Assembly: GCA_029260375.1 (NCBI GenBank)
Contig: JAJDDI010000017.1
Span: forward strand, 1-64,000
Reading direction: 5' to 3'
Source: Phycisphaerales bacterium
GTDB taxonomy: Bacteria > Planctomycetota > Phycisphaerae > Phycisphaerales > UBA1924
DNA length: 64,000 nt
The notes beneath the pieces are model-generated. The model was not told the DNA's origin and searched no databases. It saw nothing but the letters and a program-made list of their open reading frames with translations. Of the stretch, positions 8,603 to 9,851 are shown one piece after another. A program made the translations under genes and the position numbers. The stretch's first letter is position 1; every line of letters starts with the position of its first letter.

Positions 8603-9022
8603 ATGAGCCGATTGATGTCGAACTGCATAGAATGCGGCTACAGCTTGGCCGGTCTGCCGAATCAAAATGTTTGCCCAGAGTGTGGGGTGTCAATGCCTGG
8701 TGTCGCGAAGGACGACAGCCGTGTCCGATTTACTGTCCTCTTGTTCGCGTCGTTTCTGGCTTCGCTCACAGTTCTGCATCACTTGTTCTTTGCAAGAGAA
8801 GCTGCTCGGGTGGGACTGTTCCCGTCCGACAAGCCAATGGTAGTTGCAGAAGGTATTACAGCTTCAGTGGCAGCGATCTTGATCCTTGGCGTCATAGCTC
8901 GGAGGAAGCAGATCTGTCATGCGTCTCCGGCGATCCCGTTTGTGCTGCTCCTAGTCTCGTTCTTGCTGCTTCTTGCCGCCTATGCAATGGCACTTTCAAC
9001 CGCGGTGTTTACTCGATTTTGA
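8603..9022 (+). CDS. Small zinc-ribbon membrane protein
   Basis: 139 residues. The N-terminus carries two CxxC pairs, CIECGYSLAGLP and CPECG, a treble-clef/ribbon like those in many planctomycete proteins. Three hydrophobic segments follow (about 45-62, 80-97 and 110-130). Base composition is clearly less GC-rich than the flanking genes. ATG at 8603 or 8615 could start it. The function is unknown. The same ribbon pattern starts the HEAT protein at 41397-42797. Confidence 0.65.
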   Translation: MSRLMSNCIECGYSLAGLPNQNVCPECGVSMPGVAKDDSRVRFTVLLFASFLASLTVLHHLFFAREAARVGLFPSDKPMVVAEGITASVAAILILGVIARRKQICHASPAIPFVLLLVSFLLLLAAYAMALSTAVFTRF

Positions 9023-9077
9023 ACAGCACAGGGTTCTGCCGGACTTTCTTCCGAGAGGAAGTGTGCGTGGTTCACTC

Positions 9078-9125
9078 CTACAGCGCAAACGACGCCTTCA
9101 TGTTCACGCGCCAGGTGGTGGCTTC
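9078..9125 (-). pseudogene. C-terminal remnant of a second dodecin gene
   Basis: On the minus strand this reads EATTWRVNMKASFAL followed by TAG (9078-9080). The intact dodecin at 9642-9851 ends ITTWRVNMKVTFVLEE. The DNA at 9071-9120 matches 9641-9690 at 43 of 50 positions. The reading frame is cut off exactly where the inverted-repeat end of the DUF559 cassette begins (9128), so only the last 15 or so codons survive. Confidence 0.7.
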
Positions 9126-9127
9126 CT

Positions 9128-9168
9128 GCTCCCTCTCCCCACCGGGGAGAGGGCTGGGGTGAGGGGCT
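9128..9168 (+). repeat. Left terminal inverted repeat of the DUF559 cassette
   Basis: Contains CCCTCTCCCC, a short spacer, GGGGAGAGGG, then CTGGGGTGAGGGGCT. It is the inverted partner of 9571-9612. Its inner palindrome could form a hairpin upstream of the nuclease gene, 20 bases before its start. Confidence 0.7.
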
Positions 9169-9188
9169 CCGTCCTCTACACTCTCTTC

Positions 9189-9572
9189 ATGGCTCGTCAG
9201 GAGGAGTACCACACGAATCGGGCACGCGCGCTCAGGCGATCCCAGTCACCGCCGGAGGGTGTCCTGTGGTCATACCTGAAGGACCGCCAGCTCGGCGGGC
9301 TCAAGTTCCGCCGCCAGCATTCGATCGGACCATTCGTCGTCGATTTCTACTGCGCAGACGCCCGTCTCGTTGTCGAACTCGACCGCGGCTACCACGACGG
9401 CAGACGGGAGCAGGACGCTGCTCGGGATCGTGAGCTTGAATCTCGCGGGCTTCATGTGGTCCGGGTGACTGCGAGCGAACTCGCGAAGAACCCAGATGCG
9501 GTTCTCGGAACGATTCTGCGGCTCGCCCGGGATCGGATTGATGAGGCAAAGAAGGATGAGGAGAAGGGGTAG
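9189..9572 (+). CDS. DUF559 (very-short-patch-repair-like) endonuclease
   Basis: 127 residues from the ATG at 9189. It has the DUF559 pattern: an N-terminal helix with ARALRRSQSPPEGVLW, then LGGLKFRRQHSIGPFVVDFYC, and VVELDRGYHDGRREQDAARD, ending in a basic helix. Family members share the PD-(D/E)xK-like fold of Vsr nucleases; the D in VVDFYC and the E in VVELD are the likely metal ligands. The natural target is unknown. It is the sole gene of the inverted-repeat cassette and its stop codon sits inside the right repeat. Confidence 0.88.
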   Translation: MARQEEYHTNRARALRRSQSPPEGVLWSYLKDRQLGGLKFRRQHSIGPFVVDFYCADARLVVELDRGYHDGRREQDAARDRELESRGLHVVRVTASELAKNPDAVLGTILRLARDRIDEAKKDEEKG

Positions 9573-9612
9573 CCCCTCACCCCGGCCCTCTCCCCAAGGG
9601 GGAGAGGGAGGC
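9571..9612 (-). repeat. Right terminal inverted repeat of the DUF559 cassette
   Basis: Reads AGCCCCTCACCCCGGCCCTC then TCCCCAAGGGGGAGAGGGAG; the reverse complement matches 9128-9168 with one gap and few mismatches. It begins at the stop codon of the nuclease gene and its inner palindrome could serve as that gene's terminator. Confidence 0.7.
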
Positions 9613-9641
9613 AGAGAGACCTCGCCAAGCATTGCGCTGGC

Positions 9642-9851
9642 TCACTCCTCCAGCACAAACGTCACCTTCATGTTCACGCGCCACGTCGTGATCTTCCCGT
9701 CCTCGATGTCCATCTTCATGTCCTGCACCCAGGCGCTCCTGACGTTCTTGAGCGTCGTGCAGGCGCGCTCGATGCCCTTCTCGCAGGCGCGCTCGAAGCT
9801 CTTGGAACTGCTGGCGGTGATCTCGGTGACGCGGGCGACGGATGATGACAT
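9642..9851 (-). CDS. Dodecin family flavin-binding protein
   Basis: 69 residues, the usual dodecin length. It begins MSSSVARVTEITASSSKSFE, then ACEKGIERACTTLKNVRSAW, then a strand-rich end with TTWRVNMKVTFVLEE. The Trp in RSAWV matches the residue that stacks on flavin in known dodecins. Dodecins form hollow 12-mers that store or buffer riboflavin, FMN or FAD. Longer upstream starts are possible but conservation begins at this ATG. A C-terminal remnant of a paralogue lies at 9078-9125. Confidence 0.9.
   Translation of the reverse strand: MSSSVARVTEITASSSKSFERACEKGIERACTTLKNVRSAWVQDMKMDIEDGKITTWRVNMKVTFVLEE

Follow-up and report, generated by a model that had tools for sequence, protein, structure and literature searches.

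A DUF559 nuclease gene between inverted triplex-motif repeats in a Phycisphaerales genome

How does a small nuclease gene come to sit between two inverted repeats, with a duplicated piece of a neighboring gene just outside them? The question is raised by a locus in a 64,000-nucleotide stretch of DNA from a Phycisphaerales bacterium (contig JAJDDI010000017.1 of assembly GCA_029260375.1; the whole stretch is called the window below), in which a gene of the DUF559 family lies beside a dodecin gene. The unit at positions 9131-9608 consists of this gene between two convergent, inverted copies of a published repeat, the intrastrand-triplex motif (TM), and DUF559 genes in many phyla are bracketed in the same manner. 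The DUF559 gene and its TM repeats almost certainly form one linked unit. As the probable explanation, we favor a selfish element resembling the pairing of repetitive extragenic palindromes (REP) with REP-associated tyrosine transposases (RAYT), in which the DUF559 nuclease takes the place of the HUH transposase. The solo TM copies of the genome are proposed, as part of the same reading, to be the unit's nonautonomous relatives or remnants.

The unit in the window and its repeats

The unit and its surroundings comprise the following features.

9131-9166, plus strand: left TM repeat core, 36 bp, recognized from the sequence, the repeat search, the genome copies, and the hairpin fold
9189-9572, plus strand: DUF559 nuclease gene, 127 amino acids, ATG to TAG (Pfam PF04480, E=8.9e-34)
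9573-9608, minus strand: right TM repeat core, 36 bp, built on the blueprint of the left one with its third block inward
9571-9610, minus strand: match at the right TM repeat in the search for genome copies with the left-end query
9068-9120, minus strand: duplicated dodecin 3′ end outside the left repeat, reading EATTWRVNMKASFAL and then stop, identical to 9638-9690 at 46 of 53 positions
9638-9690, minus strand: counterpart of this duplicate beyond the right repeat, in the 3′ end of the intact dodecin
9645-9851, minus strand: intact dodecin gene (PF07311, E=4.2e-24), the target neighborhood

The 65-nt arms at 9129-9193 and 9546-9610 show 77% complementarity, and the core palindrome pattern has an expectation of 0.0 as judged by 20 shuffles of the window. 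The left TM runs from a pyrimidine (Y) block, CCCTCTCCCC, through an ACC loop to a purine (R) block, GGGGAGAGGG, and through a CT loop to a third, mirror-type block, GGGGTGAGGGG; the third purine blocks of both window repeats face the interior of the unit. About 20 bp separate the left repeat from the DUF559 start codon, and the right repeat follows the stop codon directly. Direct repeats of the dodecin 3′ end flank the unit on the outside, and the left copy ceases to be similar about 2 nt away from where the left inverted-repeat alignment ends. A preliminary description of the locus had reported a 485-bp unit with a DUF559 nuclease inside terminal inverted repeats, a dodecin-end fragment outside the left repeat, and an intact dodecin on the right. 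All of this holds, with an intact gene, convergent repeats, and a dodecin match that extends over 53 bp where 43/50 had been given.

The window repeats are TM, known earlier as BoxC or PIT element, which Holder et al. described in 2015 in more than 260 prokaryotes (PMC4666352). Like the published motif, they combine a Y block with a complementary R block and a third R block, and they are multicopy, intergenic, and also found as inverted pairs; unlike it, they bracket DUF559 genes here, and families that differ in sequence follow one blueprint. The E. coli motif formed a triplex in vitro, and no mobility functions were reported near the E. coli copies (PMC4666352). For the window repeats, the hairpin part alone was computed as a fold, and triplex formation is predicted from the layout of the blocks. 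Rfam returned no match for them.

A 64-nt query from the left end found 51 places in the 3.39-Mb genome by BLAST, mostly solo. Beyond the window unit, the genome holds about 45 further copies of the TM repeat, again mostly solo, and 28 copies fit the exact pattern of the window type. The preliminary description had spoken of the nuclease's own inverted repeats and had considered that they might instead be ordinary genome-wide elements with no link to DUF559. They do bracket the gene, they do belong to a published genome-wide family, and the link to DUF559 is there. The genome has three DUF559 genes, and the same kind of ends surrounds all three, as the preliminary description would have expected of a mobile cassette: two are bracketed by the CCCTCTCCCC type and one by a second TM family (CCTCCCCC...GGGGGAGG-hairpin-GGAGGGGG; 24 exact-pattern copies). 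Copies of this second family (in this genome, G000, at C66, C62, C22, C72, C83, and others) have a hairpin between purine blocks with compensating changes in the stem, and most of them retain GCA or GAA as the loop.

Association of DUF559 genes with the repeats

Surveys beyond this genome found the same anatomy repeatedly. Across 80 Planctomycetota regions, an inverted-repeat score of at least 18 was reached at 66 of 83 DUF559 genes and in 2 of 800 random windows, each a stretch of masked N. A sample of 80 loci from several phyla (Planctomycetota, Alpha-, Beta-, Gamma-, and Deltaproteobacteria, Chloroflexota, Nitrospirota, KSB1, and others) gave 46 bracketed genes out of 82, and the random windows 2 of 800. 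The contigs were found with a single DUF559 protein as query, the two samples share some genomes, and related loci lack independence; overlap and kinship fall far short of accounting for so large a contrast. At a score of at least 16, 115 of 140 stand-alone DUF559 frames were bracketed, compared with 10 of about 1,600 random windows. Frames longer than 550 amino acids, many of them probably fusion proteins, were bracketed in 3 of 17 cases, and other small genes in the same regions in 5 of 425, none with TM-like repeats. Bracketed stand-alone genes occur in relatives and in about ten other phyla, and TM-like repeats also lie to either side of a DUF559 gene in Neisseria. Two units in the same orientation, 1.7 kb apart and with near-identical ends, were observed in G331 (locus L182, 7937-8382 and 9682-10127).

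The abundance of the repeats in this genome and the dodecin-like DNA on both sides of the unit could be taken to mean that a repeat pair simply fell by accident around a nuclease gene beside a tandem dodecin paralogue. The random-window and small-gene controls contradict this, as do the shared anatomy of the three genes in this genome and of those in many phyla and the single dodecin end in the syntenic genome G019 (below). We regard such a local accident as extremely improbable.

Genome by genome, the two partners also tend to occur together. Among 392 genomes of the phylum, the strict TM pattern was present in 30 of the 64 with a strong DUF559 match and in 28 of the 328 without one (odds ratio 9.5, Fisher p=4e-12, kinship not corrected). 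Whether DUF559 drives this association or only rides along is a separate matter, because an unrelated transposase might move the unit and the solo TMs in trans while DUF559 does another job, such as DNA repair or defense. TM-rich genomes that lack a strong DUF559 match do occur, and a published description of a Vsr-like endonuclease of Caulobacter, itself a DUF559 protein, ties it to the SOS response (PMC12907096). However, in our genome and in the single-contig genome G091, no convergent TM pair with a spacing of 300-800 bp was found other than those around DUF559 genes, and other small genes are unbracketed. Y1 (RAYT-type) transposase genes, which served in the same pipeline as positive control and as a check on specificity, are bracketed by their own, different repeats; the TM pattern was found at 0 of 20 Y1 loci, and in TM-rich genomes the Y1 loci carry repeats other than TM. 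We therefore consider a passenger role for DUF559 unlikely. Planctomycete Y1 genes inside their own palindromic repeats (for example, GATAGCCACGGGCGTGAGCCCGTGGA) are seen at L305, L306, L308, and L309.

TM has been known in E. coli since the 1990s, is present in hundreds of genomes, and has been tied to genome instability, and before its pairing with DUF559 no partner in its spread was known. DUF559 is itself a widespread family of "unknown function", and the link gives the family and the repeats each a testable partner. A literature search of incomplete coverage found no published link between DUF559 and inverted repeats or TM, and the novelty of the link is provisional.

Blueprint of the ends and fold of the nuclease

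Repeat sequences differ between loci, and most arms nevertheless follow one plan of a pyrimidine block, a complementary purine block, and a mirrored purine block. The Y-R-R triple block was present in 216 of 262 arms, as opposed to 6 of 262 after shuffling; its third block faced into the unit in 186 arms and away from it in 30. With asymmetric purine blocks, third blocks that fit better as a mirror image outnumbered those that fit better as a copy by 93 to 12, and the mirror is what an antiparallel purine third strand needs. Many end families also have a small hairpin between two purine blocks, with a stem that varies by complementary changes; of the 62 such loops that are triloops, 44 read GNA. 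Such GNA triloops, when closed by a C-G pair, are unusually stable in single-stranded DNA. Both the mirroring of the third block and the conservation of the hairpin loops suggest that what counts at these ends may be single-stranded DNA in a folded state. Mapping the end class on the DUF559 tree required 31 changes, compared with a minimum of 59 in 500 shuffles. The ends thus track the protein subfamily, and gene and ends travel as a unit.

These results also bear on a regulatory explanation, in which TMs insulate or terminate transcription around small nuclease genes and mobility plays no part. The repeats are palindromic and intergenic, and the window gene ends directly at the right TM. Yet most TM copies are solo and lie beside all kinds of genes, the ends track the protein subfamily across phyla, and the sites differ between relatives. 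PIT elements, moreover, had no promoter or terminator activity in an earlier study, as that study is cited in PMC4666352. A purely regulatory role is very unlikely.

The window protein carries all residues that are invariant in 36 relatives, including E23, D52, E63, D65, and H69, and has R at position 66, where the relatives have a nearly invariant G. Its AlphaFold model (mean predicted local distance difference test score 94) aligned with NGO0050 (PDB 3hrl), a DUF559 protein of solved structure, at a TM-score of 0.67/0.90, and with the catalytic domain of the homing endonuclease I-Bth0305I (PDB 3r3p) at 0.63/0.80, the second-ranked Foldseek match. A PDB sequence search with a DUF559 alignment, whose row 2 contained four stray letters, gave 3hrl at E=2.6e-40 and 3r3p at E=9.7e-5; row 2 was excluded from the hidden Markov model that located the genes, and the alignment behind the invariant residues and the model was free of such letters. 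The fold match to 1vsr was weak (E=0.12), and the Vsr family was not among the Pfam matches of the window protein. Published work assigns DUF559 to the family of EDxHD homing endonucleases (PMC9403480). From alignment and model, the protein is a small nuclease of the Vsr/EDxHD homing-endonuclease fold, with DNA cleavage predicted. I-Bth0305I shares the catalytic fold and a sequence relation with DUF559, but it has long DNA-binding regions that the repeat-bracketed, 127-residue window protein does not. As a separate candidate function, an anti-phage defense system was rejected on finding no match to a known defense family in PADLOC, where the best hit was partial at E=0.007.

In the Pfam search, the unit matched DUF559 and, below threshold, REase_MTES_1575 alone, and no Y1/HUH tyrosine transposase was encoded. 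To our knowledge, DUF559 cannot form the covalent HUH intermediate. The likeness to the REP/RAYT systems (REPtron, REPIN; PMC2817692, PMC3116915) lies in a small gene flanked by inverted palindromic repeats and in the presence of both solo and paired copies. The enzymes differ, since RAYT is a Y1 (HUH) transposase and DUF559 a nuclease of the PD-(D/E)XK/EDxHD fold, and the unit is not a REP/RAYT member because its enzyme is no HUH transposase. Miniature inverted-repeat transposable elements (MITEs) and insertion sequences share the terminal inverted repeats and short solo copies; unlike them, the unit is without a DDE transposase, and no short target duplication of fixed length was seen. If the favored reading is true, REP-like repeats have here been paired with a nuclease instead of an HUH transposase.

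Related loci and how the unit might move

Comparison with relatives provides the evidence for insertion. In G019, a syntenic genome of a related genus, the aminotransferase and dodecin genes are present with a single dodecin end and without repeat, cassette, or dodecin fragment. The fragment at our locus is identical to the dodecin of its own genome at 46/53 positions, compared with 34/51, 37/51, and 29/42 for the dodecins of the relatives tested. The preliminary description had offered a hit on a paralogue or recombination as sources of the fragment; since it is closest to its own dodecin and G019 has one dodecin end, a duplication made locally, at the time of insertion or later, is a better fit than a separate paralogue. 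The two neighboring genes on either side of a Sinorhizobium unit almost abut in Shinella. In Sphingobium RAC03, a unit separates two carboxylase genes that are adjacent in V4 and TomTYG65, and pieces of the flanks are duplicated. A second inserted open reading frame (ORF) lies beside this unit (L083, 2184-2893), together with incomplete copies of the ends of both flanking genes; it looks as though each insertion had brought one duplication of the intergenic site. Brevundimonas lenta has a unit between two genes, and at the corresponding place Caulobacteraceae L213 has a solo TM-like palindrome alone; a related unit is found several kilobases from that site in L213. These locus comparisons support insertion and do not prove a mechanism. 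With the same anatomy in many phyla and related loci free of the unit, the earlier idea of a self-propagating cassette gains comparative support, from which we infer movement. The unit very probably is, or was, mobile.

The B. lenta site also invites a different account, in which DUF559 homes into existing repeats by cutting a solo TM or a TM pair, and repair inserts the gene between the TM halves. Only the gene would then move, and the repeats would spread by other means. The nearest characterized fold is indeed that of a homing endonuclease, the palindrome stands alone at the corresponding site in L213, and convergent TM pairs without a gene occur about 115 bp apart. However, TM is absent from the related sites in Shinella, Sphingobium, and G019, and a solo TM is equally explained as a remnant after gene loss. 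We take homing of this kind to be a distinct but doubtful possibility.

For the selfish element that we favor, a sequence of three steps can be proposed. Exposure of one strand, for example, at a replication fork, would let TM fold as a hairpin with a mirror purine third strand. DUF559 would recognize the folded structure or the TM sequence and would cut or nick there or at a target. Host break repair would then copy the TM-bounded DNA into the cut, sometimes duplicating a flank, as may have happened with the dodecin end. On whether DUF559 itself does the cutting that moves the unit, our judgment is evenly balanced. More tentatively still, and with slightly less than even confidence, we suggest that these units may be a new class of mobile element, in which a lone PD-(D/E)XK/EDxHD nuclease recognizes triplex-folded terminal repeats and relies on host repair with no strand-transfer enzyme, and that this class may be the source of BoxC/PIT/TM in E. 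coli, Neisseria, cyanobacteria, alphaproteobacteria, and planctomycetes.

Several observations weigh against the favored reading. A stable TM triplex was not found in vivo (PMC4666352). About 18% of stand-alone DUF559 genes have no bracket, and 28 of the 58 genomes with the TM pattern have no strong DUF559 match. G459, a single contig at 97% completeness, holds 168 TM copies and one weak DUF559 match, which means that TM can persist or spread without DUF559. Sites with and without the unit were compared across species that are about 74-85% identical, not across strains, and flush edges were not seen. Flank duplications exceed the background of less than 0.5% but occur in few units (5-8 of 127), with variable lengths from 17 to about 130 bp. 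Finally, E. coli ycjD, which also encodes a DUF559 protein and has an intact TM between it and fabI, differs from the window unit in having repeats on one side only; it looks as though the left end of this unit may have been lost. In E. coli C41, the ycjD-fabI interval (L196, 2898-2934) contains the intact TM, CCCCTCGCCCCTCTGGGGAGAGGGTTAGGGTGAGGGG, together with two decayed TMs directly 3′ of ycjD.

Several candidate lines of evidence were rejected. A long target-site duplication as a rule was abandoned, as the strongest case, 75 bp at L117, was recognized as spacer DNA between two paired TMs. E. coli strains do not serve as flush empty sites, as eefABC-type efflux genes replace ycjD beside fabI in many of them. 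The genus of G284, G368, and G438 was dropped as a source of strain-level empty sites, several of its DUF559 loci being orthologous. A 412-bp insertion that had been considered as empty-site evidence is an unrelated MITE with a TA duplication. This MITE, with ends TAAGTACCTGA.../...TCAGGTACTTA, splits a DUF559 gene at L301 (1680-2091; G438:C86) that is intact in two sister species.

The TM copies of G459 show a striking layout on its 5.48-Mb contig (G459:C1). Those listed between 1.27 and 2.98 Mb are all on the plus strand, 64 of the 68 beyond are on the minus strand, and below 1.25 Mb TM occurs mostly as convergent pairs about 115 bp apart. That the strand preference differs between chromosome halves suggests a connection with replication, which the uninformative GC skew samples of G459 did not confirm.

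To the left of the dodecin fragment, the window encodes at 8603-9022 on the plus strand a 139-residue ORF that begins with a CxxC...CPECG zinc ribbon, contains hydrophobic stretches, and has no Pfam match. The corresponding gap in the syntenic relative L064 is filled by a different zinc-ribbon ORF on the other strand.
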